Source: a virus
IMG/VR virus record: IMGVR_UViG_3300034198_019349
Location: 1-38,344 of that record
DNA length: 38,344 nt
Direction: 5' to 3' (one strand)
Part shown: one piece after another, positions 1-35,372 of the stretch
Layout: each line of letters opens with the position of its first letter
Numbering within the stretch: the first letter of the stretch is position 1
Translations under genes and position numbers: made by a program
The notes under the pieces: generated by a model
Told to the model about the DNA's origin: nothing
Database searches by the model: none
Seen by the model: only the letters and a program-made list of their open reading frames with translations

Positions 1-20
1 ACAAAAACCGTTTCTACTAC

Positions 21-329
21 ATGTTACAACAGATGCAAGCAAACAGATGGAGAATCACAGCAATCGTACTTGGATTGTTTTTCTTTATCATCCTAGGAAT
101 AAACGTAGGAGTCTTCACGGGACAGACTGTTAGTCAAGACTGGAAGGAAATGCTTCTTATCTTATTAGGAGCGTTCGTTGGTAACTTAAACAAAGTAGTA
201 GACTATTGGTTTAATTCAGAAGATAGAGACAAGATGTTGATTCAAAAAGTTGACGAAGAAGATGGAGTATCTCTTTCTAACGTTACTGGAACAGCAGATG
301 ACTCTGAAAATACAGATATCGAAGGATGA
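21..329 (+). CDS. Small two-helix membrane protein, holin-like
   Basis: The protein is 102 residues from the ATG at 21. Two hydrophobic segments (about residues 12-32 and 43-60) are followed by a charged, acidic tail. The segment ending the second helix (GNLNKVVDYWFNSEDRDK) resembles the end of the last helix in several phage holin-like membrane proteins, where an aromatic DYxF/W motif precedes a charged tail. This is family-level resemblance only. The reading frame is open to the left edge (Lys-Asn-Arg-Phe-Tyr-Tyr before the Met), so the true start may lie outside the window and the gene may be 5'-partial. Its stop overlaps the next ATG (ATGA), so it is translationally coupled to the exported-protein cassette. 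It could be a holin or an inner-membrane partner of that cassette. Confidence 0.6.
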   Translation: MLQQMQANRWRITAIVLGLFFFIILGINVGVFTGQTVSQDWKEMLLILLGAFVGNLNKVVDYWFNSEDRDKMLIQKVDEEDGVSLSNVTGTADDSENTDIEG

Positions 330-1069
330 GAAAACTAGCAGTTATTACACTAGCACTGATTCTATTTAGTTGTAAAACTCTACAGGCCCAGCCTCCACAA
401 AACGGTGGAGGCATAGGCACTGTTAAGACAGAACAGTATCAAGCGGATTTCGAAAAGAAACAAGACATTGATGTCGTGGCTAATTACACAGACACGATAC
501 AGGTTCCTATTCAGTTATTAAAGATTGGAATCAATGCAGAGCTCTATGAGATGTATCCTGAGCTCAAGGACAAGAGAGTCGGATTAGGTGTCACAAACAT
601 CGTGATTGAATACTTGGAGTATACTAATCGATTCATCTTCACGGAAGAGAAAGAAGATATCAAGCAAAGGATGATTGCCCAAGACAAGGCCTCAGATAAG
701 GGGATCTCATCAAACGAGATAAACGTTAAAGGTAATATAGTTTTAGCAAAGTATTTTGTTTACATTGAGGTCTATGACTTCTCAGTATCCGAAGACGAAG
801 TAGTAAAAGTAAACGGTCAACAGACAACGACTCAAACTACTAGATTGGGATTACAAATAAAGTTTGTTGACGCAGAAACCAGCCAAGTGATAGTTGGTTC
901 TGGATTAGGAGAAGCAGTTACTGTAAAGACTGAATCGATTTTGGGAGACATCTCAGATGAAGTTAAATTCAACCAATCAACGATAGGAATAAGCACAAAA
1001 AAAGCGCTGGAGACGGCATCATCTAGAGTCGTTACACGACTCATAAGCAAGGGTGTATTTAAGAATTGA
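326..1069 (+). CDS. CsgG-like outer-membrane lipoprotein (curli-type secretion channel family)
   Basis: 247 residues. The N-terminus is a signal peptide with a possible lipobox (LFSC, Cys16), followed by an alternative signal peptidase I site at A21/Q22. The mature part matches the CsgG/HfaB pattern: VGLGVTN at 85-91, then RFIFTEEKEDI from 102, a central strand segment ending in YVYIEVYDF-like residues, LGLQIKFVDAETSQVIV, and a C-terminal helix of the type KKALETASSRVV. CsgG is a lipoprotein that forms a nonameric outer-membrane channel for unfolded curli subunits. Shorter relatives only contribute to envelope complexes. I see no CsgE or CsgF homologue nearby. Start is fixed by ATGA overlap with the gene before, and its stop overlaps the TTG of the next gene (TTGA). 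A CsgG-family gene is unexpected in a phage; whether it forms a pore cannot be told from sequence. Confidence 0.68.
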   Translation: MRKLAVITLALILFSCKTLQAQPPQNGGGIGTVKTEQYQADFEKKQDIDVVANYTDTIQVPIQLLKIGINAELYEMYPELKDKRVGLGVTNIVIEYLEYTNRFIFTEEKEDIKQRMIAQDKASDKGISSNEINVKGNIVLAKYFVYIEVYDFSVSEDEVVKVNGQQTTTQTTRLGLQIKFVDAETSQVIVGSGLGEAVTVKTESILGDISDEVKFNQSTIGISTKKALETASSRVVTRLISKGVFKN

Positions 1070-2730
1070 AAATAAAAACTCTCATATCTTTACTTCTTCT
1101 AGCAATAGGGACATCTAACCTTATTGCGCAAACTTACAATTATAGTTACTCGGATCCTTGTACAGGAAACACAAAGACGATAGTCGTTCCTATAAATGGA
1201 GATGTGACTGTAGGTTATTATGGATTCGTAGAGACCTTTTCATACACAGATTTTAATGATGGAACTTTTGATACTTGGACAAACTCTGTTTTTTCCCAGT
1301 TTCAAGGATCACCGTGTGCCGAGATAGTCGGCATAACTAGCACGGTGACGATCGCCCAAAATGCGGCATTCAATGTTGTGAACATATTGAATTCGTTAAG
1401 CGCCTTGTCAGATTTTGCTGGGGCGTCTGGTGCAACTGACCTACTGACGGGAAGTATAGGTGCCGCTTCTAACTCTTCAGGTTCATCTGAAGAAGAGGAA
1501 GAAAATAATGAAGGTAATGGAAGCTCAAATAATCAAACGGGTCAAACCTCTACTGAATCAAATCAAGTCGGCTCAGGAGCAAGCGGAAGTGGAGGAACTG
1601 GTGGATCAACTGGAGAAAGTCCTGCTGGAAATGGAGTGGGAACTTCAACTCAAACTGGATCAAATGAGACAGGAAGTACATCGACTGGCCAGACTCTAGG
1701 TTCGACTGAACCGAACCAAATCGGCGGAACTAGTACTGAATCAAATAATCAAACGACTAATGGAAATAGTAATGAAGGCAATGGCTCTGTTAACTCTGGG
1801 GGTTCTAGTGTTAATGGGAGCAGCGGGAATAGCAGCGGAAATAGCGAGAACAATCAAGAATCGCAACAAACGGAAGTAAATAATACTGAAACTAATCAGA
1901 CTCAAAATGGAAATGGAAATACTAGCACCTCTAGTAGCACTACTAGCTCTAGCGGCTCCTCTTCTTCTGAAGGCAGTGGACCACCTAATAACGAAGAGAC
2001 GCCAAGCCAGACAGAAGGACAAGGAAAAACAAACATAACGGCTGGAGCAGTCAAGACCGTGAATGCTAATAAGGATAACGGAAATGGCGCGCCTACTGTG
2101 ATTGCATCAAGCGATTTCGTAGGTTTTAACTTTAAGAACTCTGAAGTAACTACTGGTTTAAAGCTAACTGGTGGATATCATTCGTTACGATGGGACGGAC
2201 TTAGAGCACACGGTGTAATGGTAGATTATGTTTCTGCTTTAAAGGGTCCAAACACAACTGCGTATTACGCATGGGTAAAACCAAAATCAATATCAATGCT
2301 TTCTTTGACAGGAACTCTTGGTTTTGAAGGCAGAGGATCCCTGTATGGGACAATAGCTGGGGGACAGATGTTATTGTTTCCCAAGATAAAAAACCTTAAG
2401 GCAGTCTATATGGGAACCATCTCATACGGTCAAGTCTATAAGACTCCTTTTATAGGAAGCGCCTTGATTGCAGGAGGAATGTACGACATAAGGTTATTTA
2501 AAAGGATTGACATAAAACTAATGGGACTTTTCGTTTACGTTCCATACATTAGCTATTATAACGACCTTGTCTTGAAATCTCCATATGTTGTGATTCCAAG
2601 CTTAGGTACGAATATCTCAATAACAAAGAGATTTAAGTTTAATATAAACGCCGGTGGGGCATGGGCGATAAAAGAGAAAGCCTTAAATTATACGATAACA
2701 TGTGGAACAAGATTATTAATTGGACAATAG
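1066..2730 (+). CDS. Exported protein with Ser/Asn/Gly-rich segment and C-terminal outer-membrane barrel-like domain
   Basis: 554 residues from a TTG overlapping the previous stop. A signal peptide ends NLIAQ, with Gln at +1. Residues about 22-134 form a small domain with two Cys (C37, C83 region). Residues about 135-325 are low complexity: Ser, Asn, Gly, Thr, Gln and Glu with almost no hydrophobics, and degenerate units such as TSTESNQVG, STEPNQIGG and TSTESNNQT. Residues about 345-554 alternate hydrophobic and polar residues in roughly ten strands separated by short turns, ending in ITCGTRLLIGQ, which is typical of an outer-membrane beta-barrel. The flexible region would lie between the N-terminal domain and the barrel. 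I do not recognise the family. Location next to the CsgG-like gene suggests a shared envelope complex, but that is inference. Confidence 0.75.
   Translation: MKIKTLISLLLLAIGTSNLIAQTYNYSYSDPCTGNTKTIVVPINGDVTVGYYGFVETFSYTDFNDGTFDTWTNSVFSQFQGSPCAEIVGITSTVTIAQNAAFNVVNILNSLSALSDFAGASGATDLLTGSIGAASNSSGSSEEEEENNEGNGSSNNQTGQTSTESNQVGSGASGSGGTGGSTGESPAGNGVGTSTQTGSNETGSTSTGQTLGSTEPNQIGGTSTESNNQTTNGNSNEGNGSVNSGGSSVNGSSGNSSGNSENNQESQQTEVNNTETNQTQNGNGNTSTSSSTTSSSGSSSSEGSGPPNNEETPSQTEGQGKTNITAGAVKTVNANKDNGNGAPTVIASSDFVGFNFKNSEVTTGLKLTGGYHSLRWDGLRAHGVMVDYVSALKGPNTTAYYAWVKPKSISMLSLTGTLGFEGRGSLYGTIAGGQMLLFPKIKNLKAVYMGTISYGQVYKTPFIGSALIAGGMYDIRLFKRIDIKLMGLFVYVPYISYYNDLVLKSPYVVIPSLGTNISITKRFKFNINAGGAWAIKEKALNYTITCGTRLLIGQ
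1468..2040 (+). repeat. Low-complexity Ser/Asn/Gly/Thr-coding segment with degenerate short repeats
   Basis: This in-frame stretch encodes about 190 residues composed almost only of S, N, G, T, Q and E (residues about 135-325 of the barrel protein). Degenerate units containing T-E-x-N-Q recur at least three times (TESNQVG, TEPNQIG, TESNNQ). Codons vary between copies, so these are old, diverged repeats and not a fresh tandem expansion. Such stretches are prone to length change between relatives. Confidence 0.7.
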
Positions 2731-3875
2731 CATTAATCCTGTGTATAGAAGTCAATGCACAGCCATTCACCTATTCAGGATACGTATATGGAGCAAATGA
2801 CCAGGGACTTTCAAACGTCCCAGTATATCTTTATGGAAAGAGGACAGACCCGTATGATGTTACTTTTCCAGCATACAACACAGCAGCTGCCTTTAATGCT
2901 GGAACAGTTATCCCTTCATCTGATGATGCTACTCATGGGCCTTTTAATATAGGTTTTACTTTTAACTTCTTTGGAAACAACTATACTCAGTTTTACGTAG
3001 GATCGAACGGATGGATTGGATTTACAGCAGCTCAGACTACTGGTTATACTGCAGCATACATCCCTAACGCAGGCTCACCGAGAAACGTGGTCATGGCAGA
3101 TTGGGAGGACCTTTATCCCGGTGGAGCAAACATCTATTATACTACGATCGGTACTGCACCGAATCGGAAGCTAGTAGTTTCATTTAATGCAGTGCCCCAC
3201 TATAGCTGTAGAACAAACCTTCACACCTTTCAGTTCGTTCTTTATGAGACGACAAATGTGATTGACGTAAACTATCAAGCCAAGCCGCTATGCGGTGCAA
3301 ATAACGCGACTGCCGGTCTAGTCAATGTAGATAACACGAATGTTGTGCCGGTCGGAGGGAAGAACGCTTCACAATGGAGCGCTACTAACTATTCAGTAAG
3401 ATACACGCCATCTGCTGCAGAGACTGTGTTTACGCTAAAGGGCACGTATTACACAAACGTAAACGGGCAGTATACAATGGTTCCTAACTTGGACGCACAG
3501 TCCTATCAGTTTCAAATAAGACTAGAGTCAGTGAGCATCCCAACGCCATCTGTGACTGATGCAAGATATCCGTTGATCATGAACATTAATAACATTGCAA
3601 TGAACTCTAAGTTATATTATCTTGAAGACGTTAACGAAGACGGTCGAGTGACTGTTTCTGATTCTTATTTAATATATGGAAAGATTTCCGGTAGGTTCAC
3701 GAGTTGGCCTTCCCCAAATTACAGGATATTTACTCCTACTGAATGGAACTTAATAAAGGTCGGATTAACTAACGTAAAATCGACTTATCCAGGAATACAA
3801 TCAATGACTATTTCTTCCCCAGTCAGTGGAGGATCTACCAACTTCTACCTAATAAGAACTGGCTATACAAACTAA
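2700..3875 (+). CDS. Exported multidomain adhesin-like protein with dockerin-like calcium loop
   Basis: 391 residues from the ATG at 2700; this start is preferred to an in-frame ATG 39 bases upstream because it places a clean signal peptide (TIALILCIEVNAQ) at the N-terminus, with Gln at +1. It overlaps the previous gene by 31 bases. After cleavage there is a SGYVYGANDQGLSNVPVYL segment like a CarboxypepD-regulatory beta-sandwich, then a domain with FNIGFTFNFFGNNYTQFYVG and a strand-rich core seen in Bacteroidota surface proteins (nidogen-like), then a loop DVNEDGRVTVSD typical of dockerin/EF-hand Ca sites. No type IX C-terminal sorting domain is evident. Likely located at the cell surface or in the periplasm; the ligand is unknown. 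Confidence 0.75.
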   Translation: MWNKIINWTIALILCIEVNAQPFTYSGYVYGANDQGLSNVPVYLYGKRTDPYDVTFPAYNTAAAFNAGTVIPSSDDATHGPFNIGFTFNFFGNNYTQFYVGSNGWIGFTAAQTTGYTAAYIPNAGSPRNVVMADWEDLYPGGANIYYTTIGTAPNRKLVVSFNAVPHYSCRTNLHTFQFVLYETTNVIDVNYQAKPLCGANNATAGLVNVDNTNVVPVGGKNASQWSATNYSVRYTPSAAETVFTLKGTYYTNVNGQYTMVPNLDAQSYQFQIRLESVSIPTPSVTDARYPLIMNINNIAMNSKLYYLEDVNEDGRVTVSDSYLIYGKISGRFTSWPSPNYRIFTPTEWNLIKVGLTNVKSTYPGIQSMTISSPVSGGSTNFYLIRTGYTN

Positions 3876-3885
3876 CCCAAACTAA

Positions 3886-4473
3886 ATGAAACAATTAATT
3901 TTATCCTTATTTCTACTACCTTTAATGGTAGCTGCACAGAAACCTTTACGTGACTCAATTTACATTAAAGCAACGACTTTTGAGGTAGTCTATTCTGAAA
4001 AACTCCAACAACCTAAATTCGTTAGATACACAGTTCAATGCGGAGACGGTACTGCTTCTAGATCAGGAATGGACTTTTATACTTGTGATTCTATATTGAC
4101 GTCAGACAATAAGGACTACGAAAAGAACCAATACGACAAGGGTCATATGGCACCAGCAGCCGACTTTAATTGCACTAGAGACATGATGTATTCGACCTTT
4201 AGCTATCTAAACTGTTCTCTTCAACAAGAAAATTTAAACCGAACTACTTGGAGACTATTAGAAGCTAGGGAAAGAGAATTGGCTAAGACTAACAAGAACG
4301 TCGTTGTCGAAATAAGATGCGTCTATTCTAAAAACTCAATAGTTTTACCAAGCGGTGCAACTATCCCAGACGGTTATTATAAGACTATAAAATACGGCAA
4401 GACTGTTGAGAAGTATTACTTCAAGAATGAGAAGCCGCTTTTCACTGACTACACAAAATACAAGATAAAATGA
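3886..4473 (+). CDS. Exported DNA/RNA non-specific endonuclease (beta-beta-alpha metal type)
   Basis: 195 residues. Signal peptide LFLLPLMVAAQ, with Gln at +1. The NUC1/EndoG-type active site is visible: YDKGHMAPAADF with His87 as general base (family motif DRGHxxPxxD), followed by YLNCSLQQENLNRTTW, which matches the family pattern N..PQ....N...W (N109, N118, W122). These enzymes cut single- and double-stranded DNA and RNA using one Mg ion. The domain is complete though the protein is a little shorter than typical members. Export would place it in the periplasm or outside, so the phage genome in the cytoplasm is not exposed. It could degrade extracellular DNA or DNA of a competing phage during entry. 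No immunity protein is evident next to it. Confidence 0.9.
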   Translation: MKQLILSLFLLPLMVAAQKPLRDSIYIKATTFEVVYSEKLQQPKFVRYTVQCGDGTASRSGMDFYTCDSILTSDNKDYEKNQYDKGHMAPAADFNCTRDMMYSTFSYLNCSLQQENLNRTTWRLLEARERELAKTNKNVVVEIRCVYSKNSIVLPSGATIPDGYYKTIKYGKTVEKYYFKNEKPLFTDYTKYKIK

Positions 4474-4922
4474 GAAAACTAACCTTACTGTTCAGTACTG
4501 TTCTACTTAACTTAATCGTAAACGCCCAAGAGTGTGTCTATGTCGATTCAGTCTATTCTACTGCCAAGCTTAGAGAGATGGGAAACAGGGACATTCGTTT
4601 TGGGATCAAACAGATTGTTGAGGACGAGCTTTCTGAAAAATATTGCTTGGGTCAAGGCTCGGACATAGACGTTGAAGTATTCTATTTTGGAATACCTAAA
4701 CATACGATTAGAATAGTAGGAGTCGAAAAGACTAATCAGATAACCCAAGTAGGAGTTCGCATCTACTATAAAGGGATCAAGTATGAAGGGATCGGAGAAT
4801 CTGACGTTGAAGTAAGAGCAGTGATGATCGAACTAGTCGATAATAAAGTTCCATTCGATAAGATGACAGTGTCATCGGCTCTAAAAAAAGCAATACATGA
4901 AGCAATTACTAGCATGCCTTAG
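4470..4922 (+). CDS. Exported protein of unknown function
   Basis: 150 residues, starting in an ATGA overlap with the nuclease gene. Signal peptide TVLLNLIVNAQ, then ECVYVDSVYS, so Gln is at +1. The mature part has an alpha/beta composition: several strands (DVEVFYFGI, TIRIVGV, TQVGVRIYYKGIKYEGIG) and a C-terminal helix (SSALKKAIHEAITSM). The strand pair followed by an A/K-rich helix is loosely similar to the end of the CsgG-like protein in this cassette, but I would not call them homologous without a structure comparison. Coupled on both sides by overlaps, so it is probably needed in fixed proportion to its neighbours. Confidence 0.7.
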   Translation: MRKLTLLFSTVLLNLIVNAQECVYVDSVYSTAKLREMGNRDIRFGIKQIVEDELSEKYCLGQGSDIDVEVFYFGIPKHTIRIVGVEKTNQITQVGVRIYYKGIKYEGIGESDVEVRAVMIELVDNKVPFDKMTVSSALKKAIHEAITSMP

Positions 4923-5352
4923 TTTACTTATTACTCTAAACGTTTGTTCTCAAATAAAGGTGGATGATGTTGGAGATAGTTGGAAAGACAGTGTAAATGC
5001 TGCAATCGAAAAGATAAAGACCTCTGACACCTTCTATCATGTCTTTCTAAAAGCCAATTGTAATCACATAAGCTATACACTAGCTAACTTCTCAACGACT
5101 GAAGGTGACTCAACTATACTGATCTCTACTAAGCAAATGAAAGCTGGCTATGTTAACGATATCGCGGCAACTCTAGTACATGAGTCTCTACACCTTTATC
5201 TAAAGAGATTACATTTAACTTTGACTGAGCGTGAGGAAGAATTAATGTGCTATAAGTTTGAGTTGATGTTTCTATTTTGTGTCATTGATGTCGAGGCCTG
5301 GCTCATATCTAATGCAGTTATCATGGTAAACCATTACTCAGGAGATAAATAA
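4897..5352 (+). CDS. Exported HExxH-motif putative metalloprotease
   Basis: 151 residues, overlapping the previous gene by 26 bases. Signal peptide LLITLNVCSQ with Gln at +1 (Cys17 could instead be a lipidation site). The motif AATLVHESLHLYL gives H95-E96-xx-H99, the zincin zinc-binding helix, and acidic residues about 15-20 positions later (EREEELMCYKFE) offer a third ligand. The segment before the motif (STTEGDSTILISTKQMK) resembles the edge strand of zincins. The rest of the protein is small for a protease, so it is either a minimal enzyme or a derivative. The substrate is unknown. No inhibitor or propeptide can be seen. Last of the six exported proteins in the cassette. Confidence 0.65.
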   Translation: MKQLLACLSLLITLNVCSQIKVDDVGDSWKDSVNAAIEKIKTSDTFYHVFLKANCNHISYTLANFSTTEGDSTILISTKQMKAGYVNDIAATLVHESLHLYLKRLHLTLTEREEELMCYKFELMFLFCVIDVEAWLISNAVIMVNHYSGDK

Positions 5353-5722: not shown

Positions 5723-7268
5723 CTGTCTTCTTGGCGATCTCAAACTTTTGTTCTCTGTAGATCTCTTCCCTGACTTTTGAATGTTTTATAGAATAACCAT
5801 CTAAGCCATCGACTAGATCCCAAACAATCACGTTATTTTTCTCAGCAAGCTTACGCATGCCTCGACCGATTGCCTGTCTTAAGGTGATTTCTGCCTTAAT
5901 GGACTCTGCCAAGATTATGTGGTGTAGGTTTTTAGAGTCGATCCCTGTTGCAAAGGTACCGTAACTCGCAACTATTATCACCTCGTCTTGTGACTCAAGC
6001 ACGACCTTAAACTGATCGCGATCAACTGAATCTACTTCTCCGTCTATGTAAAAAGTATTTTTATTCCATTCTAGTAACTTAGACTGAATCATCTTACCGT
6101 ATCCGTTTTTAACATCAGAAAAGAGGATCAGTGTGTTTTTGTTTACCTCTCGACAGAGGTCACTAATATAGTCTAATCGCTCTTTGCTCTCAAATATTAT
6201 TCCTTTTTCGATTGATAGCATGTCCCTTCCGAAGTCCTTAGGATCCCTGTACATATCCTTACCTGTCTCCTTTAAGTGCCAATACTTTTGGATTTGTGGA
6301 TCGCTTTCATTGTATTTAAGGCTCACCATCTCGATCTTGATGTTTGGAGAATATCCATTATCGATTAGGTGTTTGGCTGAAAGAACCATGACCAAGGGTC
6401 CAACTGTTTCCTGTACTCTAAAGAAGTCCGAAAACTCTTCGTCGATCTTAACTGTTCCAGAAAGTCCTAAACGATACTCCCAATTTATACAAGAAAGAAG
6501 AATGTCTCGAATTGAGTTTCCTTTAGACTTGTGAACCTCATCGACTTGAACGATTGAGAACTTGCTAAATATTTCAATAGGTAAATTGACTAGACTTTGG
6601 TATGTTGAGATCACGACCTCAGCTTCTTCAAACTTTTCTTGAGTAAACTTTTCTTTTCCACCTATGGATAAGACGTTCCATTCCTTACCTGGCTTGGCAT
6701 ACATCTCAAACTTCTCAGCAGTCTGACCGACTAGCGAAACGTTTGGAACTATGATTAAACTCTTCTTTTCTTTTGAGATCTTACCGCCATCCCTTAAGAA
6801 GGAATTGTATATGTAAAAGATTAGAGTCTTTCCAGCAGAGGTCGCAAGCTCTTCAGTACAGAATCTATATTTGATTGCCCTAAATGCCCCTTCGATCTGA
6901 TAGTCTCTAGGAACTATCGGTAATCCCCTTTCATCAATGATGCCTTCTAGTAAGTTAGACACATACTTTAGATAAAGATCTTTTGAGATGGTGGGATTAA
7001 CGAATAGATCAGAGCCTTCGATCTCACATTCATATCCGTACTTGTCACAAAAGTTATAGATCTCCTTCCACAGGCCGATTGCTATCTCTCCGTTCTTAGT
7101 TATGAATGCGTCCATTCCATCCCAGATACCCCTATCGACTAAAACGTTGAATGCAGCTTTCTTAGATTTCTTTTTAAACGCGCTGAAGAGCGCTGTCCTC
7201 TCTTGATTTAGAGTGGTCTCTACCAATTTAATGAACTTCTTATCTTGGGTGACCTTGAACTTTAACAC
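5703..7268 (-). CDS. uvsW: UvsW-like SF2 DNA/RNA helicase
   Basis: 521 residues from a GTG four bases after the upstream stop. The N-terminal 90 residues match the UvsW-specific domain (GIWDG...GLWKEIYNFCDKYGY compare T4 NWDGR...QIKKFCDNFGY). Helicase core motifs follow: RDYQ at 121-124 (Q-motif region), ATSAGKT at 142-148 (Walker A), DEVH at 243-246, LGLSGT at 268-272 (motif III), and QAIGRGMR near residue 465 (motif VI). T4 UvsW unwinds R-loops and branched DNA, ends origin-dependent initiation and drives late recombination-dependent replication. Length agrees with T4 UvsW (about 500). It lies downstream of a UvsY-like gene in a two-gene unit, as expected for recombination functions. Confidence 0.93.
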   Translation of the reverse strand: MLKFKVTQDKKFIKLVETTLNQERTALFSAFKKKSKKAAFNVLVDRGIWDGMDAFITKNGEIAIGLWKEIYNFCDKYGYECEIEGSDLFVNPTISKDLYLKYVSNLLEGIIDERGLPIVPRDYQIEGAFRAIKYRFCTEELATSAGKTLIFYIYNSFLRDGGKISKEKKSLIIVPNVSLVGQTAEKFEMYAKPGKEWNVLSIGGKEKFTQEKFEEAEVVISTYQSLVNLPIEIFSKFSIVQVDEVHKSKGNSIRDILLSCINWEYRLGLSGTVKIDEEFSDFFRVQETVGPLVMVLSAKHLIDNGYSPNIKIEMVSLKYNESDPQIQKYWHLKETGKDMYRDPKDFGRDMLSIEKGIIFESKERLDYISDLCREVNKNTLILFSDVKNGYGKMIQSKLLEWNKNTFYIDGEVDSVDRDQFKVVLESQDEVIIVASYGTFATGIDSKNLHHIILAESIKAEITLRQAIGRGMRKLAEKNNVIVWDLVDGLDGYSIKHSKVREEIYREQKFEIAKKTVNLSNR

Positions 7269-21660: not shown

Positions 21661-22242
21661 ATGGCAATAGACGATCAAACAAAAGCGGTAACTGAATTAG
21701 GTTCGCTTGGAATAGATATCCCTGGACTAAATGCAGATTCGGTGATTGAAAATATCATAAAAAAGGACGAGACTCTTGGTAAATACTTGAAGATGATTGA
21801 TTCAGCTAAGGCTGAAAAGATTGAGAGAGGAATGACTAAAGAGGAAGCAGATAAGGCGGCAGAAGATTCAAAAAAGGAGGTCATTGACGAAGTAAAGAAT
21901 AATCTTAAACCTTCAGTAGAGGAAGACATCATTAAAATGAAACAGGAATATAAGACGGCAAAGGAGGCATTAGACTCTATTCCAGTTGAGGTTCAAGCAA
22001 CGGTCGCGACTGCTGCACTACCTGCCGCTCTTCCACCAGCTGTGCCTAATCCAACTTATACATTAGGAATTGCCTTACAAACCAAGAAGAATCTACTCAA
22101 GACTCTAAATATTGTTCTTTCTTCCTTGACTGCGGTGCTGATGATAGCCAATAAATTAAAGTTTGAGCTACCTGAAGCAGTGCTCACTTTGGTTAAAACA
22201 CTCGGAACAGTCACTAGCGGTCTTTCCGCAATCCCAGGCTAG
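21661..22242 (+). CDS. Helical protein with hydrophobic C-terminus, last gene of the baseplate block
   Basis: 193 residues, starting two bases after the spike gene. The N-terminal half is a charged helical region (SAKAEKIERGMTKEEADKAAED). A Pro/Ala linker (AALPAALPPAVPNP) leads to a hydrophobic helical C-terminal part (LKTLNIVLSSLTAVLMIANKL and VLTLVKTLGTVTSGLSAI) that could insert in a membrane or pack inside the tail. No family recognised. Candidates are a tail-tip or ejection protein. Its stop shares the CTAG with the convergent gene at 22239, so there is no room for an intergenic terminator. Confidence 0.65.
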   Translation: MAIDDQTKAVTELGSLGIDIPGLNADSVIENIIKKDETLGKYLKMIDSAKAEKIERGMTKEEADKAAEDSKKEVIDEVKNNLKPSVEEDIIKMKQEYKTAKEALDSIPVEVQATVATAALPAALPPAVPNPTYTLGIALQTKKNLLKTLNIVLSSLTAVLMIANKLKFELPEAVLTLVKTLGTVTSGLSAIPG

Positions 22243-22838
22243 TTAGTATAGAGATTCTCTATTCCCTCATAACGATAGTGTTTGTTCAATAAAGAGTCTG
22301 AGTGAACTGATATGAGTCGGTTTCTAGGAATCACTAGTTTTCTAAAGTTTTCTAAGATCATTCTAAACCTAGGTTCATACCAGGCCGGTCCGTGATTATT
22401 TAAGGATATGTGATTTAAGTCTTTCCAAAAGTGGCTAGGTTCGCTCCATTTTAAAGAGATGCCAGCCAAATAAAAAGTTGCAGTCCTATCCATTAAAAAC
22501 TGAGACCTAAATAGTGAGATTGCAGTTGTGACTGAGTCAGGAAAATTGGCAGGATTCGGTCTAGGATAAACTTTTACCCAAGGCGGTACTTGTACACTAT
22601 TCTTCTTAGAGAATGTGAGCCAGTCGCTACTAAAACACCTAGACTTTGAGGTCAGTGCTTTTACTACGTCAGGTCTCTTTTCAAGTTCCTTAAGTATCTC
22701 AAAGTCATTAAAGAAAAAGTAATTAGGAATGTGTTTAAGCCAGATCCTATTTACGCCAAGTGTGATGACATCCTTTTGGAGACGAGAAAAGTCTATCTCA
22801 TTTATTTGAGGGTCGTTTCCCAATACTAGAACTCTCAT
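22239..22838 (-). CDS. DUF115/sialyltransferase-like Rossmann protein
   Basis: 199 residues. The N-terminus MRVLVLGNDPQINEIDFSRL, then VITLGVNRIWLKHIPNYFFFND, follows the pattern of MptE/DUF115-type and bacterial sialyltransferase-like proteins: V-L-G-x-G/D-P-S/Q-I, then I-x-L-G-V-N, then an aromatic strand ending in D. The same order occurs in the gene at the opposite end of this cluster (34697-35311). Enzymes of this shape transfer sugars from nucleotide donors, or bind nucleotides. In a cluster with NeuA and NeuB, a nonulosonic acid transferase is a reasonable inference but not shown. Last gene of the minus-strand cluster; starts in ATGA overlap with the HAD gene. Confidence 0.55.
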   Translation of the reverse strand: MRVLVLGNDPQINEIDFSRLQKDVITLGVNRIWLKHIPNYFFFNDFEILKELEKRPDVVKALTSKSRCFSSDWLTFSKKNSVQVPPWVKVYPRPNPANFPDSVTTAISLFRSQFLMDRTATFYLAGISLKWSEPSHFWKDLNHISLNNHGPAWYEPRFRMILENFRKLVIPRNRLISVHSDSLLNKHYRYEGIENLYTN

Positions 22839-23134
22839 CCCTTTAACCAGTCTCTAGCGTTTATTGCCTTGTCGTCAATGAAGACGTCAAATGCTGGTTT
22901 ATCGAGTCTTAGCTCATGGTACTTTACACCAGCATATTTCAGCTGTTCCTCAGTAAGGATTCGCCAGTCTTTACCGGTAACCGCACCACGAGCAGTCCAC
23001 AATACGATAGTGTGCCCCTCTTCATAGAGAGAGTTTACTTTAGCTATTGCGTCAGGCATGCCAATTGCTGTGTGATAATCGTCCTTGACTACTAATTCAA
23101 ATATGGTGTCGTCAATGTCAATAAAGTAATTCAT
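22835..23134 (-). CDS. Small HAD-superfamily phosphatase (capsule-biosynthesis type)
   Basis: 99 residues. Motif I FIDIDDT (D6, D8) and motif IV FDVFIDDKAINARDW are complete; the centre VLWTARGAVTGKDWRILTEEQL is the motif-II Thr with the GxDW pattern seen in small HAD phosphatases linked to capsule and sugar-nucleotide clusters. No large cap domain. It probably removes phosphate from a sugar phosphate, possibly Neu-9-P or a related intermediate if NeuB makes a phosphorylated product, but that is inferred. Overlaps both neighbours: ATGA with the gene after it and 17 bases with the gene before. Confidence 0.85.
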   Translation of the reverse strand: MNYFIDIDDTIFELVVKDDYHTAIGMPDAIAKVNSLYEEGHTIVLWTARGAVTGKDWRILTEEQLKYAGVKYHELRLDKPAFDVFIDDKAINARDWLKG

Positions 23135-23423
23135 CTACCTTTATGTTTTTTTCCTTCTTATATTCTTCCCAAGTAGAGCTGTCCATCATGTCAGGAAACC
23201 TTTCGCCTTCGTTACAGGATTCCTTAACATATAGCTTTCCTGGAACAGAACAACCGCAGAAGACACAGTACTCATTTTTAATACAGTCAGCTCGGCAAAC
23301 CCAGCTTCGATAGATCACTTGCTCCTTTTCGTGATATGGGATCAAGTCGATATGATCGCCAAGCATCTTTAAGTTACCTTCAATGAATTGAAGTACGTTT
23401 TTAACTGTTATTTTTTTAGACAT
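23118..23423 (-). CDS. Cys-rich small phage protein
   Basis: 101 residues. The centre has CRADCIKNEYCVFCGCSVPGKLYV..C, eight Cys counted in the protein's middle third as closely spaced pairs, the typical look of a zinc-binding knuckle. A helical N-terminus (VKNVLQFIEGNLKMLGDHIDLI) and acidic C-terminus (WEEYKKEKN) flank it. I recognise no named family, though similar CGC-type short proteins recur in phages. It overlaps the gene upstream by 16 bases and the HAD gene downstream by 17. Confidence 0.65.
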   Translation of the reverse strand: MSKKITVKNVLQFIEGNLKMLGDHIDLIPYHEKEQVIYRSWVCRADCIKNEYCVFCGCSVPGKLYVKESCNEGERFPDMMDSSTWEEYKKEKNIKVDELLY

Positions 23424-23548
23424 TCTATCTTATTTTTTGTCTCAATTATCTTATTTTCTAGCCACTTTATGTACCAACCGTCTAAGTATGATCGCATGAT
23501 CAATTCACGTTCTAAACGGTCTAGGTATCCCACGAGGTCCTTAATCAT
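23408..23548 (-). CDS. Very small protein coupled to neuB, unknown
   Basis: A 46-codon frame from an ATG overlapping the NeuB stop (ATGA) to TAA at 23408, overlapping the Cys-rich gene by 16 bases. The sequence is helical: MIKDLVGYLDRLERELIMRS, then YLDGWYIKWLENKIIETKNKI, with alternating Leu/Ile and charged residues and a Trp pair. It fills the only gap in this part of the cluster, and overlapping on both sides is the rule here, which supports reality. Too short for a family call. Confidence 0.5.
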   Translation of the reverse strand: MIKDLVGYLDRLERELIMRSYLDGWYIKWLENKIIETKNKIECLKK

Positions 23549-24432
23549 TTTCCTCTGAGCGTTTTTCTTTTTTCTAACTCAGACGGTTTAACTTTCCGGG
23601 CTCCATATCCTCCACGAGAGGTCTCAATGTCCCTTATACTCTTTACCAATTTAATGAGACCTTGAGGTTCAACTGAGGCCATCTGATCACTACCCCAAAG
23701 AGTCCGGTCTAACGTTATGTGACGTTCTATCCAAGTTGCACCTATTACTGAGGCAGCGATTGTAGTTGTCAACCCAAACTCATGACCAGAATAACCTATT
23801 TCAAACCGCCTATCGAACTCACCAGCGATGTGGTTAAGATATATGATGTAGTCTAGGCTGAGCTCGTTAATTGGCGCAGGATAGGTTGAATTAGTGTGAA
23901 AAACTACTCCAGGATGAGCCGTCATTATCGCTAGATCAATCTCTCCTTGATTGCTCATACCGGTTGAGATTAAAACGTCATCACAACAGTCGTTGGCGTA
24001 AGCAAGAAGTTCTAAGTCAGTGATCTTAGCGGATGGAATCTTTACCATTACACCAGATTTCCCATTGGGTAGAAGAGTATGATACCTTCTCATGAAATCG
24101 ACTGAATCCTTGTCCCAGACTGAAGCAAACCAGCTAATGCCTTTTTCCCTGCAGTAATCGTCGATCTCATCGTATTCCTTTTGCCACATCTCAATGTCAT
24201 TCTTGTATTGTAGATAAGTAGTCTCTTCCTTTCTCCACGGAACTGATTTTGGTCTTGCCATTTCCTTTTCAGGTACACAAACAGCTGGATTTCTTTTTTG
24301 GAACTTCACATAGTCACAGCCTGCAATCACAGAAACGTCTATTAGTTTTTTGATGTTTGCCATGAAGCTATCTGGGCTGGAACCATACGCGTAATTTATT
24401 CCAATTTCAGCAATTATCTTTACTTTTTCCAT
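23545..24432 (-). CDS. neuB: N-acetylneuraminate synthase family (NeuB-like)
   Basis: 295 residues. Starts VKIIAEIGINYAYGSSPDSF with the expected AEIGxNH-like strand (Tyr replaces His), then CDYVKFQKRNP; later VKIPSAKITDLELLAYA, LISTGMSNQGEIDLA, FHTNSTYPAP, IGYSGHEFGL and ATWIERHITLDRTLWGSDQMAS, all NeuB barrel elements (PEP and ManNAc-like substrate binding). NeuB of bacteria is about 340-350 residues with a C-terminal antifreeze-like SAF domain; that domain is absent here. The barrel usually needs the SAF of the partner subunit, so activity may be altered. Makes a nonulosonic acid from PEP and a hexosamine. Pairs with NeuA at the other end of the cluster. Confidence 0.9.
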   Translation of the reverse strand: MEKVKIIAEIGINYAYGSSPDSFMANIKKLIDVSVIAGCDYVKFQKRNPAVCVPEKEMARPKSVPWRKEETTYLQYKNDIEMWQKEYDEIDDYCREKGISWFASVWDKDSVDFMRRYHTLLPNGKSGVMVKIPSAKITDLELLAYANDCCDDVLISTGMSNQGEIDLAIMTAHPGVVFHTNSTYPAPINELSLDYIIYLNHIAGEFDRRFEIGYSGHEFGLTTTIAASVIGATWIERHITLDRTLWGSDQMASVEPQGLIKLVKSIRDIETSRGGYGARKVKPSELEKRKTLRGK

Positions 24433-25250
24433 TCGTCATAGGGTATTTCAAATATGTTTTCACAAGACTTGAGTCTAATCTTGCCTAGGGAAGGGAAGAT
24501 GATCTTGTTGAAATCTAGTTCAGGTTTTTTGTGACTAACTCTATTTATGCTATCGATGAGAGTATTTGCGCTTGCTCTCTTAAATATTGCTCGAGTAGTC
24601 GCTTCATACTTTATCTTAAGATCCTTTCTCACAGTTTCCATGTGATGCATGGTGATAAACTCATGGTCAAACTCATGAGTAGTCTTTACATTGGAAGCTA
24701 TTCCTCTAGTCGGATCACATTTTACAAAAAATCGACTAGTCATGGCAGACGATTCGTCGACCTTACAGATGAAAGGTACTCGAGAAGGGTCATATCCTCT
24801 ATGTAGAGTAGGAAGCTTTACATAATTTATGAATCGAGCAGCAGTCAAGCCATAATCGTTTTTCTCGACCTCTGACTTGGCATTCGCAAACTGTTCTTCT
24901 ATGTAAAACTCATCAACATCCATACAAAGATAGTGAGTGCAGCCCTTTTTAATGGCGCTCTTTAGGCCAAAGTATCTTTTTTCCCTCTCATAGGTCTTTG
25001 CTTTAGCTATTGAATTGGCTAAGCTGTCCCTTAATGGAGTAAAATTAGAAAACTTACTTAGTTCATCGACTAAACCACTAACCTTTAGGGAATTTAGAAT
25101 GATTAGGTCCTCGTTTTTTATTGGGTGACCGAACCAAGATTCAGTCTGATAAACTACTTGTATATAGTCTACGTGTTTTCTTATCTGTTTGATTGAGTGC
25201 TCTAGGAGTTCTACTCCATCAAACACTATATAGGATACTCCAAGTTTCAT
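24420..25250 (-). CDS. GT-A fold glycosyltransferase-like protein
   Basis: 276 residues. Starts KLGVSYIVFDGVELLEHSIK, then YIQVVYQTESWFG, and has a DxD-like element in HYLCMDVDEFYIEEQF, where the metal-binding acidic pair of GT-A enzymes lies. The middle is basic (KAKTYEREKRYFGLKSAIKKG). FITMHHMETV adds a His pair. Resembles glycosyltransferase families with MDVDEFY (GT2/GT92 type). Acceptor unknown. Overlaps NeuB by 13 bases, and its ATG touches the stop of the dehydrogenase gene upstream. Confidence 0.7.
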   Translation of the reverse strand: MKLGVSYIVFDGVELLEHSIKQIRKHVDYIQVVYQTESWFGHPIKNEDLIILNSLKVSGLVDELSKFSNFTPLRDSLANSIAKAKTYEREKRYFGLKSAIKKGCTHYLCMDVDEFYIEEQFANAKSEVEKNDYGLTAARFINYVKLPTLHRGYDPSRVPFICKVDESSAMTSRFFVKCDPTRGIASNVKTTHEFDHEFITMHHMETVRKDLKIKYEATTRAIFKRASANTLIDSINRVSHKKPELDFNKIIFPSLGKIRLKSCENIFEIPYDEWKK

Positions 25251-26068
25251 TAGTTTATGATATTAGTTTTATCGGGTCTCATCTCGTTTCTTTCTATTAT
25301 AGTTGCCTCCAAGACCTTAGATGGAGTTTTGTATTTCTTCATATATTTAAGTAGTGCACTCGTGTCCTTTGGAAAACAGGAACCTCCATAACTTAGGAGC
25401 CCGTCTGGACCGGGCACTTGCGTGTGCATAGGATTTATCCAATCGTTTTCTAACATAAGATCCCTAACTGATTCGTAGTTACATCCCATCTTTTCACAAA
25501 GTAAATAAATCTCATTAAAGAACTGAACTTTAACTGAATAGAAAGAATTAGCAAAGATCTTCATGCTTTCAGACTCAGTAGAAGTGCAGACAGATATTTT
25601 AGCATCTGGATAAAACTTAGAATAAAAATCAACTGCTTTTTTTAACTGGCAGCCTCCACATGAAGGTCCAGTCCCTAGCACAATATGGGATTGATTATTA
25701 AAATCTACAAGAGCAGTACGCTCAGTTAAAAACTCAGGATTGTGTATTATAGAAAGACCTGAAAATACTCTAGAAAGATTAACGGTAGTCTCAGGTTCAA
25801 CTGTGCTCTTTAGCACAACTAAACCCGTAAAACTTTCAATTGCTAAAAAAGTTAAAGTCTCGACGATTGCTGATTTGTCGTATTCTGCCGTACTTTCTTG
25901 ATAAGGAGTCGGTAGAGATAAGAAGATTATATCTGAGTCTAGACACGACTCTAGAGAACCTATTTTTTTATATTTGTCATAACCAATTAAGTCAGTCACT
26001 CCTTTCTGTTTAAAGCTTTCAAACATTGCAGAGCCTACGAAGCCAAGTCCAATTACTGCAACTTTCAT
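25250..26068 (-). CDS. UDP-glucose/GDP-mannose dehydrogenase-like, C-terminally short
   Basis: 272 residues. NAD motif VIGLGFVGSAM at 5-15, then FLSLPTPYQE, VLKSTVEPETT, HNPEFLTERTA at 109-119 and the catalytic site YGGSCFPKDTSAL with Cys231. These enzymes oxidise UDP- or GDP-sugars to uronic acids. Full-length members have about 390-440 residues with a third, nucleotide-binding domain; here the protein ends near residue 270, just after the central helix, so that domain is missing. It might be inactive alone, or may use another protein for sugar-nucleotide binding. The start is an ATG overlapping the upstream stop. Confidence 0.85.
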   Translation of the reverse strand: MKVAVIGLGFVGSAMFESFKQKGVTDLIGYDKYKKIGSLESCLDSDIIFLSLPTPYQESTAEYDKSAIVETLTFLAIESFTGLVVLKSTVEPETTVNLSRVFSGLSIIHNPEFLTERTALVDFNNQSHIVLGTGPSCGGCQLKKAVDFYSKFYPDAKISVCTSTESESMKIFANSFYSVKVQFFNEIYLLCEKMGCNYESVRDLMLENDWINPMHTQVPGPDGLLSYGGSCFPKDTSALLKYMKKYKTPSKVLEATIIERNEMRPDKTNIIN

Positions 26069-26700
26069 TTTATTGTTTTGTTATTTTTAAATATTGTAAA
26101 CTCAGTAAGATCCCGATAGCCATTTACCTCATGTAAATCACTATTATGATCTGGATAGTTTTGCATTAGAGCTAATCCTTGAGCAGCTTCTTGAGGAGTC
26201 ATATACATATTCCAACCAATACTTGTGATATCGTCTTCTTTATAGAACTTTTCGCTTCTACCTTCATATCTTGCCTTTTTAAACCACTCAACCGCAACTG
26301 GATCACTGGTTAATATTGCTCCACCTTTTCCTATTCCAAGCTTCTTCTTTATGTGAAATGAAAGACACATAAAACTATCTGGAACGTACATATTTGAAGT
26401 AAATCTCTTCGCTGCATCATATATCGGATAGGGAGAAAGCTGATATGCGCCTGTCCATTGATTAGCTTGAACACTACAGTCAAATACGACTTCACCACCG
26501 GCTTGTAGTATACTCATAGGAACGGAAAGATATGTGTGTGATGGAATAGTTACTGCTTTTACTTTTAGATAAGTGCAGCACAAGAATAGAGCGCTCGTAC
26601 AGCTATCTACTGCAACTGCATACTTTGAGCCAGTATACTCAGCAAGTTCCTCTTCGAACATTTGAACTATCTTATAGGGATTGTGTATTTTGATCGGCAT
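26065..26700 (-). CDS. DegT/DnrJ/EryC1/StrS-type aminotransferase, short
   Basis: 211 residues from the ATG at 26700 (an upstream GTG at 26724 adds eight residues). FEEELAEYTGSKYAVAVDSCTSAL is the family start, IPSHTYLSVPMSILQAGGEVVFD the core, YDAAKRF (D95) the PLP-ring aspartate and SFHIKKKLGIGKGGAIL contains the candidate Schiff-base lysine (K119 by alignment). Normal family members are 360-400 residues; this one ends after the large domain, with TPQEAAQGLALMQNYPDH as the last family-like helix. It would transfer an amino group to a nucleotide-linked keto sugar if functional, or be a reduced form. The overlap with the acyltransferase gene upstream is 29 bases with this start. Confidence 0.8.
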   Translation of the reverse strand: MPIKIHNPYKIVQMFEEELAEYTGSKYAVAVDSCTSALFLCCTYLKVKAVTIPSHTYLSVPMSILQAGGEVVFDCSVQANQWTGAYQLSPYPIYDAAKRFTSNMYVPDSFMCLSFHIKKKLGIGKGGAILTSDPVAVEWFKKARYEGRSEKFYKEDDITSIGWNMYMTPQEAAQGLALMQNYPDHNSDLHEVNGYRDLTEFTIFKNNKTIK

Positions 26701-27244
26701 AACTTTGATTATTTTTTCGTTCACCTATTTTTTTAGCCGGACTGCCTACATAAATGCCCCAAGGATCTAGATCTTTGTTAACAAAGCTATTTGCACCTAT
26801 TACTGCACCTTCACCTATTTTAACTGGCATTATTACGCTTCGTGCGCCTATGTATACATCATTGCCTACTTCTAAAACACCACCTAGAGTCTCAGTCGAG
26901 CCTTCTTGTAATCCGTCTACCATAGTTAAGCCTTCTGCATGAGAATAGGTAGCAGATAAAAAAACTGTTCCTGGTCCAGTAGACACCCTATCACCAAGTA
27001 TAGTTAAACCTCCTCCCCAAAAAGTAGTGTGAGGTTGAACGTCTGTATTTTTGCCTATTTTAACTCCAGTACCACCAAAAATGAAGACGAAATCCCCGAT
27101 TCGACAATCGTCGCTGAGTTCAACGACTTGCGGTACTGTTATTTTTGCCATTGGATAAATCTTAACTCCTTTACCGCATGACTTTAATTTTTCTTTTACG
27201 TTTTCGCCCATAAATTCAAGGCCTTCTAGTTTTTCCATATTCAT
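26672..27244 (-). CDS. Hexapeptide-repeat acyltransferase (left-handed beta-helix)
   Basis: 190 residues from the ATG at 27244 (a TTG three bases upstream is less likely). Repeated [LIV]-G-x-x-[TSV]-x units are plain: IGDFVFIFGGTGVKIGKNTDV, LGDRVSTGPGTVFL, and VGNDVYIGARSVIMPVKIGEGAVIGANSFVNKDL, then IYVGSPAKKIGER, the classical end of the NeuD/WbbJ type. A His in TYSHAEGLTMV is a candidate catalytic residue. Probably acetylates an amino sugar, which fits the aminotransferase just downstream. Overlaps its neighbours by 29 bases at either side. Confidence 0.87.
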   Translation of the reverse strand: MNMEKLEGLEFMGENVKEKLKSCGKGVKIYPMAKITVPQVVELSDDCRIGDFVFIFGGTGVKIGKNTDVQPHTTFWGGGLTILGDRVSTGPGTVFLSATYSHAEGLTMVDGLQEGSTETLGGVLEVGNDVYIGARSVIMPVKIGEGAVIGANSFVNKDLDPWGIYVGSPAKKIGERKNNQSYADQNTQSL

Positions 27245-28259
27245 CAAACATTTTTTTTCTTTTTTTTATTAAGAAACTGAATTTATTAGATTCTTTTTCT
27301 TTTTTATAGTCAATTAGCATTTTTTTAAAATTATACTTCGGAGTCCAATTTAGTTCTAGTTTTGCTTTACTATTGTCATACACAAAACAGTCTATAAAAT
27401 TTGTTTTTTCGGGAAAGAATAATAACTCAATATTATTCGTCTGGTTAAACACCTCAATGATAGTCTTAATTTCTTCTAAGAGAGTTAAAGAATAGTTTGA
27501 AGATATATTATAGAGTCCCTTTGCAGAATCTGAAGTAATCGCACAGATAAATGCTGAAACTACATCTTTAACATATATTATGTCTCTACCTACGTGATGA
27601 TCGCCCCAAACCTCTATTGCTTTTCCTAAAATTGCACGATCGATAAAGGTTTGAAATCCAGTCCGTATTGGTGTACCTCCTTTAAATATGTCTAGGTGAG
27701 GACCGTATCCATAAACAGGAGGGAGCCTAAAAACTATTGAATTGATATTATAGCTTTCACTGTAATGTTTTACGCATTCATGTGCGCAACTTTCAGCTAT
27801 ACTAAACATTGAGTATTCACCGAAGTATTCTTGTGAGATACCATCTGACTCTCTTACTTTGCTCATCTTTCCCCAATGTCCTGATGTGTTTCTATGTGAC
27901 ATTGCATAAATTATCTTAGGAATATTTCTGTTTTTACAAAATTCTAAAACGTTAAGAGTACCTACTGCATTGATCTCAAGGTAATCTTTAGGCGAGTGCT
28001 TCATCGGGTCATAATTAGAAGGCTGCAGAGCAGCAAGTTGTATAACAGTTGTGCAGTCTGTACTGTCTATCTCATTGAATTTTTTAGAATCTCGCAAGTC
28101 TAATTGTAAAAACTCTATTTTTTTATCTAAATAATAATCAGACAGCATGTCATCTGAATCTATTGCTAATACTTGATAATTTTTATTTAGTAGAGAATCA
28201 ATTAGGTAGGTTCCGATAAAACCAGAAGCGCCGAAAATAATTATTTTATCTTTTTTCAT
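27216..28259 (-). CDS. NAD-dependent epimerase/dehydratase with Lys replaced in the active site
   Basis: 347 residues. Extended SDR fold: FGASGFIGTYLIDSLL at 9-24, DLRDSKKF, VIQLAALQPSNYD, then EINAVGTLNVLEFCKN, and VFRLPPVYGYG, IYVKDVVSAFICAI. These are the usual epimerase elements (UDP-sugar substrates). The canonical catalytic pair is YxxxK; here the candidate Tyr149 is followed at +4 by Ser153 (EYSMFSIAES), with no Lys. Other SDR enzymes can use a different pair, but this loss suggests altered chemistry or a binding role. The last 30 residues are very basic (KKEKESNKFSFLIKKRKKMF). Base composition is clearly AT-rich compared with genes on either side. Confidence 0.85.
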   Translation of the reverse strand: MKKDKIIIFGASGFIGTYLIDSLLNKNYQVLAIDSDDMLSDYYLDKKIEFLQLDLRDSKKFNEIDSTDCTTVIQLAALQPSNYDPMKHSPKDYLEINAVGTLNVLEFCKNRNIPKIIYAMSHRNTSGHWGKMSKVRESDGISQEYFGEYSMFSIAESCAHECVKHYSESYNINSIVFRLPPVYGYGPHLDIFKGGTPIRTGFQTFIDRAILGKAIEVWGDHHVGRDIIYVKDVVSAFICAITSDSAKGLYNISSNYSLTLLEEIKTIIEVFNQTNNIELLFFPEKTNFIDCFVYDNSKAKLELNWTPKYNFKKMLIDYKKEKESNKFSFLIKKRKKMFDEYGKTRRP

Positions 28260-28260
28260 A

Positions 28261-28938
28261 TTATTGTTTTTTTAAATAGTTTTTAGAATTAGGACCAACA
28301 TTAAAGATTAAATCCAATATGCTGACATTTCCAATAAATGAGCCGAATCTTTGCGGATATTCTAAGTAGCCTGAATAATCCATCCAGTTAACATTTATAT
28401 TATTTGATTTAAACAAGGCAGTATCTAAATAGCACGACGCAGATGGGCCAGATATGTATGTGTTTGCATTTAATTTTATGCAAGCATCAATTAACTTTGA
28501 ATTTCGATCACCAGTTAAACACAAGTCAGCTGACTCTATTATTTTAGTATCTATTAGTAAGATCTCACATATTTTTTTAATCAGGTTGACATTTAGGTTA
28601 GATAAAGAAGTAAAGTTTTCGTATATTTCAAATATTTCATCTTTATACTTTTGAAAAAATGGAGACTTAGAATAATTTAAAGTTAGTGCTTTTATATGCT
28701 TTTTTTCCCAGCCAGTCTGCATAGTTAAAGTTTCGTTTATTTTTTGGTACATAGATTCTCTTCTTACTGGAACAGTGAGCCACGATAGACCGTTTGCTGT
28801 TTTAATCAAGTTACGATTTCGCCAGTCATTTTTAGTATATTGAACTTCATCATAGATAACAAAAACATCAGCGCTTGCAATTAGATCAAAATATCCTCTC
28901 CATGGAATATAATTAGACTGACATATTGAAACCTTCAT
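28261..28938 (-). CDS. WbqC-family protein
   Basis: 225 residues. ICQSNYIPWRGYFDLIASAD, then FVIYDEVQYTKNDWRNRNLIKT, and LTVPVRRES are the signature of the WbqC family, where an N-terminal Q-x-x-Y-x-P-W-x-G-Y-F is followed by D-x-x-Q-Y. WbqC-like proteins are found in O-antigen and polysaccharide clusters of bacteria; their exact reaction is not established, though acylation or acetimidoylation of an amino sugar has been proposed for relatives. The middle of the protein is helical (FFQKYKDEIFEIYENF). The composition is AT-rich, with Asn/Lys/Ile heavy usage, as in its neighbours. Gap of one base to the epimerase gene. Confidence 0.88.
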   Translation of the reverse strand: MKVSICQSNYIPWRGYFDLIASADVFVIYDEVQYTKNDWRNRNLIKTANGLSWLTVPVRRESMYQKINETLTMQTGWEKKHIKALTLNYSKSPFFQKYKDEIFEIYENFTSLSNLNVNLIKKICEILLIDTKIIESADLCLTGDRNSKLIDACIKLNANTYISGPSASCYLDTALFKSNNINVNWMDYSGYLEYPQRFGSFIGNVSILDLIFNVGPNSKNYLKKQ

Positions 28939-28953
28939 TTAATCGTTATTATT

Positions 28954-29736: not shown

Positions 29737-29738
29737 TA

Positions 29739-30497: not shown

Positions 30498-30502
30498 GTA
30501 TT

Positions 30503-31938: not shown

Positions 31939-31940
31939 GT

Positions 31941-35311: not shown

Positions 35312-35372
35312 GTAGAACTTTTTTTTCTTATACAATATAATATAGAATAGTTTAGAAAAAACTTTTAAATAG
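35312..35372. promoter_or_regulatory. Divergent intergenic region between glycan cluster and DnaJ gene
   Basis: This short region must hold promoters for both directions. Plus strand: TATAATATAGAATAG at 35334-35350, followed by an A run and TTTTAAATAG before the ATG. Minus strand: ATTATATTGTATAAG followed by an A run, close to the start at 35311. Neither matches the late-type octamer, so these may be early or middle type. No consensus -33 box of the Bacteroidota type is clear. Confidence 0.4.

Follow-up and report, generated by a model that had tools for sequence, protein, structure and literature searches.

A T4-like phage known from a virus record of 38,344 bases (the whole stretch analysed here, called the window) carries a cassette of exported proteins by which it probably displays a cohesin scaffold on its host through the host type IX secretion system (T9SS), docks one variable lectin onto it and exports parts with a CsgG-type complex. 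Sequences and structure models bring together export leaders, a T9SS tail, a cohesin domain, a dockerin-like module, a CsgG fold, an outer-membrane (OM) barrel and lectin heads in one conserved linkage. The component identities are well supported and sequence could hardly show a stronger linkage, while the function, that is T9SS use in vivo, cohesin-dockerin binding, the secretion route and the biological purpose, is what we infer. More tentatively, with the chances falling somewhat short of even, the cassette may represent an undescribed class of phage system, in which lytic T4-like Bacteroidetes phages build a cohesin-dockerin display with the host T9SS and a phage-only CsgG-type complex, swap lectin heads and re-target the infected cell before lysis.

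Layout of the cassette

The window encodes a UvsW-type helicase, a gp53-like wedge and a gp5-like hub. Six consecutive genes, g1 to g6, occupy positions 326-5352 on the plus strand. An earlier note, made from the sequence alone, had described them as an overlapping cassette of exported proteins in a T4-like phage, and all of its coordinates and junctions were exact on recheck. The gene g1 (326-1069) is joined to g0 by an ATGA junction (326-329) and to g2 (1066-2730) by TTGA (1066-1069); g2 and g3 (2700-3875) overlap by 31 bases (2700-2730, with the ATG of g3 at 2700), g3 and g4 (3886-4473) are separated by a 10-base gap, g4 and g5 (4470-4922) meet in a second ATGA (4470-4473), and g5 and g6 (4897-5352) overlap by 26 bases (4897-4922). 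A promoter and terminator scan gave matches no commoner than in shuffled sequences.

The cassette starts upstream of position 326 and is cut by the window edge, which truncates the 5′ end of g0 (3-329, plus strand), predicted to encode a small membrane protein with about two transmembrane (TM) segments and no signal peptide (126 aa in locus L001). Because the window starts inside g0, two genes further upstream are missing from it: a scaffold of about 636 aa and a one-helix membrane protein. Both are present in L001, the closest relative, whose g1 is 97% identical to that of the window and whose scaffold lies at L001:3347-5254; from the relatives, the scaffold is predicted to be present in the window's own phage as well. 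The earlier reading of a consecutive, overlapping export cassette was supported in part and is extended here; what it had missed, because it lay upstream of the window or was invisible by eye, was the scaffold with its cohesin and T9SS tail, the dockerin-like tail of g3, the homology of g5 to g1 and the two small membrane proteins.

In Bacteroidetes, most SPI substrates expose Gln after cleavage, the so-called Q-rule (PMC5837995). Each of the proteins g1-g6 has a hydrophobic leader ending in (A/S)Q, which corresponds to such a site. In a crude scan, Q-rule leaders were found in 82-100% of each exported family (scaffold and g1-g6; 51/52 for the scaffold) vs 8% of the other ORFs of the same loci, which rules out chance. 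Recurring across the families, these predicted leaders mark the cassette as an export operon fitted to a Bacteroidetes host.

Conservation and distribution

A sequence search with g1 yielded 58 IMG/VR loci and an alignment-based search at least 556 stretches, and gene order was established by ORF clustering of the fetched loci. The order was near-universal: scaffold (about 636 aa), one-TM protein (about 110 aa), two-TM protein (g0 or an alternative), g1, g2, g3, g5, with g4 between g3 and g5 and g6 after g5 in part of the loci. Among the 45 loci with at least 4.5 kb downstream of g1, g5 was present in 45, g2 in 44, g3 in 43, g6 in 34 and g4 in 22; the order g1, g2, g3, g5 on a single strand held in 40 of 43 loci, and a TM gene of the C9/C6 type was found in 43 of the 51 loci with at least 3 kb upstream of g1. 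The scaffold lay upstream of g1 in 167/170 loci, and the CsgG-like gene g1 within 2.5 kb of the scaffold in all 162 fetched scaffold loci with at least 2.5 kb of downstream flank; this linkage comprises 86 distinct sequence pairs, some contigs being counted repeatedly, so that locus counts exceed contig counts. The earlier note had named genes carried singly and scattered in relatives as what would speak against its reading; they are instead conserved as a unit, their order being kept in dozens of related phages.

The three loci lacking the typical scaffold (L054-L056) encode a diverged cohesin-like protein in its place. Together with L062 they form a deep branch that kept g1 and a g5-like gene, and whose cohesin-like protein has no detected T9SS tail; L062 also encodes an additional small lipoprotein (6204-6572). 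The nuclease gene fills the slot between g3 and g5 in roughly half of the loci; in others the slot is taken by different exported proteins, several of them barrel-like in composition (265-290 aa), such as those at L023 9364-10158, L051 9354-10169, L061 11516-12334 and L019 8250-9119.

A T4-type portal is encoded by 10 of the 11 large genomes tested (101-292 kb). Among 50,697 deposited phage records, isolates of Flavobacterium phage immuto were the only matches to g1, the scaffold, g2 and g5, and the host is known solely for this cultured relative (Flavobacterium sp. LMO8). In L024, L031 and immuto, the cassette adjoins DnaB/NrdAB genes and is not located with the late structural genes; such neighbours suggest that it would be expressed in the early or middle phase and not in the late one.

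The g1 family is phage-restricted: a host origin was rejected, since a single one of the 396 Bacteroidota genomes searched contained g1, on a phage-like contig in a MAG. A pattern scan for g1 in 84,980 species genomes returned three loci, one of them in a KSB1 bacterium. On that MAG contig (L063, 787-3588), a g1-like CsgG gene, a g2-shaped gene and a g5-like gene follow each other as in the cassette, next to a histidine-kinase gene. This trio may be the cellular equivalent of the g1-g2-g5 core; profile comparison gave no support for its g2-shaped gene as a true relative of g2.

The scaffold and the adhesin

The T9SS type-A sorting tail (Por_Secre_tail) was found in 29/29 scaffolds scanned (TIGR04183, 41.0 bits vs a cut-off of 23) and the Pfam Cohesin domain in 26/29 (best 9.5e-14). 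Dockerin_1 matched 19/29 at E<=0.1 (best 7.8e-5), the scaffold of L001 scoring 18.4 bits, below the Pfam curated cut-off of 22.9. When the scaffold profile was compared with the dockerin of a solved PDB scaffoldin, both repeats were covered (E 1.1e-3). We therefore speak of a dockerin-like module, a label that rests on this profile comparison and on the loop motif described below. In all 11 large phage genomes the T9SS tail exceeded the cut-off, and each genome encoded such a tail exactly once and dockerin-like modules exactly twice, in the scaffold and in the adhesin. The scaffold has two cohesin-like parts; the proposal that they are duplicates was rejected, as it found no profile support. 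Two adjacent ORFs make up the scaffold in immuto (L060, 9868-11692) and in L051 (3014-4903); the cohesin lies in the second, as does, in immuto, the T9SS tail.

The protein g3 consists of a variable head and a constant dockerin-like tail of about 165 aa (about 3378-3872), and has no T9SS tail of its own. The constant part is homologous to the dockerin-like middle region of the scaffold (hhalign 99.8%, E 2e-29) and contains in the window a predicted Ca-binding loop of the dockerin/EF type, DVNEDGRVTVSD, at 3627-3662; such a loop is present in 67 of 70 distinct g3 sequences. The best Dockerin_1 value for the adhesin was 5.9e-4, and the window's own g3 had no Pfam match in either head or tail.

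Lectin_C was recognised in 21/34 heads, Laminin_G_3 in 9/34, GEVED in three and PA14 in one (L048), and Ig_7 is another head type in relatives. The EPN and WND motifs, which are the Ca/sugar motifs of the Lectin_C fold, occur in 59/70 and 58/70 distinct g3 sequences, and the Lectin_C heads of relatives are, by sequence, C-type lectins. The term adhesin-like used in the earlier note is borne out for the family. The window head belongs to the type FTFNFFGNNYTQFYVGSNGW, which is common to L013, L036 and L061 and differs from the lectin heads of relatives. Heads are swapped while the rest remains constant: those of the window and L001 are mostly unrelated despite the 97% identity of g1, and pairs with at least 95% g1 identity (window/L001, L004/L013, L022/L028) often have heads that are largely unalignable or of different architecture. 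No reverse transcriptase (RVT_1) was detected in 11 phage genomes; a diversity-generating retroelement was therefore rejected as the origin of the lectin variation, and recombination is the more likely mechanism of head swapping.

CsgG-type proteins, barrel and exported enzymes

The g1 protein (247 aa) carries a lipobox (LFSC) and an AQ site. Direct Pfam, PHROG and PDB sequence searches gave no convincing match, Pfam CsgG being absent from the window g1, and its identity came from the fold and from an intermediate homologue. With the AF2 model, whose confidence was moderate (pLDDT 67), the best 19 PDB hits of Foldseek were all CsgG or CsgG:CsgF (best E 8e-8; TM about 0.4-0.47), and the KSB1 homologue (L063:787-1473; 34-37% identical) scored 25.7 bits against Pfam CsgG (cut-off 20.8). 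We thus assign g1 a predicted CsgG fold. The model shares its fold with the E. coli curli channel (PDB 4uv2/4uv3/6l7a) and has long strand pairs at the transmembrane hairpins of CsgG, although identity is 12-14%. A lipobox was found in 37/58 g1 ORFs, suggesting that lipidation is not universal; of the earlier description as a CsgG-like lipoprotein, the first half was upheld by the fold and the second applies to part of the family. The g5 protein, previously listed as unknown, is by profile comparison a short, exported homologue of g1 with a CsgG-type domain (hhalign 98.5%, E 1.9e-15). In contrast to the E. coli system, the cassette has no CsgE/CsgF, and it combines g1 with this short second copy and with a separate barrel, g2.

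The exported g2 protein has an N-terminal Cys-containing domain, a low-complexity, Ser/Asn/Gly-rich linker of about 200 aa and a C-terminal barrel (about 2080-2727). AF2 modelled the latter with 12 strands (pLDDT 84.7) and Foldseek matched it to OM barrels including EstA, NalP and FapF, in agreement with the OM barrel first proposed. The nuclease and the HExxH protein were likewise confirmed. The exported g4 is a predicted DNA/RNA non-specific endonuclease (Pfam Endonuclease_NS, 2.9e-24) whose DRGH-type catalytic motif is intact (DKGH at 4135-4146; D[RK]GH in 24/24 g4). The exported g6 carries HESLH at 5179-5193 with a conserved EE downstream; HExxH is present in 34/34 members, E114/E115/Y119/E122 are invariant, and Pfam SprT-like gave merely 0.03.

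A probable surface display and its alternatives

The arrangement that we favour would work as follows. During infection, the Sec pathway would export all parts. The host T9SS would carry the scaffold to the outer surface by means of its type-A sorting tail and anchor it there, where its cohesin would hold the one variable adhesin by its dockerin-like tail and perhaps also bind the dockerin-like module of another scaffold, forming a chain. The adhesin might leave the cell piggy-back on the scaffold or via a CsgG-type complex of g1 and g5, which would be held at the outer membrane together with the g2 barrel; this complex could export the lectin, the nuclease or g6, and the two small membrane proteins may connect it to the inner membrane. 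The nuclease and g6 would act in the periplasm or outside. The infected cell would end up coated with a lectin chosen by the phage, probably serving adhesion/aggregation or superinfection exclusion. Host-surface remodelling or exclusion, as put forward in the earlier note, is a plausible, if putative, function; our own preference would go to adhesion and aggregation of infected and future host cells, followed by receptor masking or exclusion of competing phages.

The main rival reading, which we consider unlikely, is a lysis module in which g1, g5 and g2 open up the outer membrane, small membrane proteins (g0, C6, C9) are holin- or spanin-like and a nearby endolysin completes lysis. A role of this kind has been proposed for the CsgG of the OM43 phage Melnitz (PMC9004378), and an endolysin (PG_binding_1 + GH19) lies within about 6 kb of the cassette in 33 loci (e.g., L013 1828-2658, minus strand); however, its strand and side vary, mostly opposite strand and upstream, downstream in others. 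Family searches of the cassette proteins gave no holin match, their sole trace being spanin2_3 in the C3 protein, which has a single TM and an acidic tail (E 0.023, far under the 80-bit cut-off). In several phages the cassette also neighbours replication/NrdAB genes, which argues against lysis; the cohesin/T9SS scaffold, the lectin heads and the nuclease would, moreover, have no role in it.

More doubtful still is a jamming of the T9SS, whereby the scaffold tail would compete for the host machinery, receptor proteins would be lost from the surface and superinfection would be blocked, lectin display being secondary. It would account for the single, strongly conserved T9SS tail per phage genome, but the tail alone would suffice, and the cohesin, the matching dockerin-like tail and the often-exchanged lectin heads would be superfluous in a decoy. 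Superinfection exclusion has already been suggested for the phage-encoded T9SS cargo of Cryophage (PMC7468147). Cryophage shares with the cassette T9SS type-A sorting tails on phage genes, a PA14 domain among them, and cargo that varies between near-identical phages; the passage on this cargo describes single enzymes or a PA14 protein and mentions neither a cohesin scaffold with a dockerin adhesin nor a CsgG pore or a barrel (PMC7468147).

We regard as quite improbable a curli-like fibre, either a scaffold chain or the Ser/Asn/Gly-rich g2 linker, that g1 would secrete and that would polymerise as in pelagiphages. Pelagiphages do carry curli (type VIII secretion) operons combining CsgG, CsgF, curlin repeats and FecR (PMC7029224; PMC9599517), and CsgG/F is found in the OM43 phage Melnitz (PMC9004378), which tempers the statement in the earlier note that lytic phages seldom carry an envelope/secretion set. 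Like the cassette, these operons (HTVC008M, pelagimyophages, HTVC023P-type podophages, Melnitz) are conserved multi-gene sets of exported proteins in which a phage encodes a pore of the CsgG family, g1 having the CsgG fold, and HTVC008M pairs CsgG/CsgF and curlin repeats with a PA14 head, as also seen on the adhesin of L048. However, whereas HTVC008M was positive in the same type of search (Pfam CsgG 4.8e-53, CsgF 4.7e-16, Curlin_rpt 5e-8), neither CsgF nor a curlin-repeat subunit (CsgA/B) was matched among the cassette proteins scanned; relatedness of g1 to pelagiphage CsgG was rejected for lack of profile similarity, and five HTVC008M proteins scanned contained no cohesin, dockerin or T9SS tail. 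By these markers the cassette is not a curli operon, although by analogy it may act in a comparable way, pairing a CsgG-type pore with an adhesive product at the surface. The HTVC008M proteins at L080 9560-11963, annotated as hypothetical, were identified as FecR and as a fusion of PA14 with curlin repeats, which places an adhesive head on a body of the curlin type.

Finally, although phage capsid decorations include Lectin and Ig-like domains, virion decorations or packaged internal proteins are highly improbable given the Sec leaders on every member, the T9SS tail of the scaffold and the OM-barrel and CsgG-type partners.

The display of a lectin on a cohesin scaffold resembles the cellulosome in having a separate surface-anchored cohesin scaffold and a partner with a dockerin-like module, binding in the cassette being predicted from sequence. 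Cellulosomes carry many enzymes and use S-layer or sortase anchoring, whereas the phage-encoded cassette has one scaffold with a T9SS tail and one adhesin, and its dockerin-like module is degenerate and below the Pfam cut-off, unlike that of cellulosomes. In the open-licence literature, we found no paper on phage-encoded cohesin-dockerin pairs; the nearest precedents are the pelagiphage curli operons and the one phage with T9SS cargo, neither of which uses cohesin-dockerin. To our knowledge, the cassette would be the first phage-borne cohesin-dockerin display system. What appears to be new and previously undescribed is the combination of interchangeable sugar-binding proteins on the infected cell with the host secretion machinery and a virus-made outer-membrane pore. 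The prevailing view of phages is that they mostly alter the infected cell from the inside; if a conserved cassette clothed the dying host in lectins of the phage's choosing, infected cells would become ecological actors that stick, aggregate and exclude rivals. Such a cassette would also offer a natural tool for surface display in Bacteroidetes, and it is directly testable in the cultured pair of Flavobacterium phage immuto and Flavobacterium sp. LMO8.

Other genes of the window

About 14 consecutive genes of sugar/LPS type, named by reading only, occupy positions 22239-35335 on the minus strand: a NeuB-like synthase, a nucleotide-sugar dehydrogenase, a DegT-type aminotransferase, an acetyltransferase, an epimerase, a WbqC-like protein, several glycosyltransferases and a CMP-sugar synthetase. 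Comparable sugar gene sets have been reported for bS21 phages of Bacteroidetes (PMC9723584). Unrelated window proteins at 5357, 8251 (minus strand), 9491 and 13715 share a similar short N-terminal motif (MKYIKLFEEI, MIKYLKLFEDF, MPKLKKFSQFVNEAE and MMSFAEYLNQW), reminiscent of the capsid-targeting sequences of T4 internal proteins.
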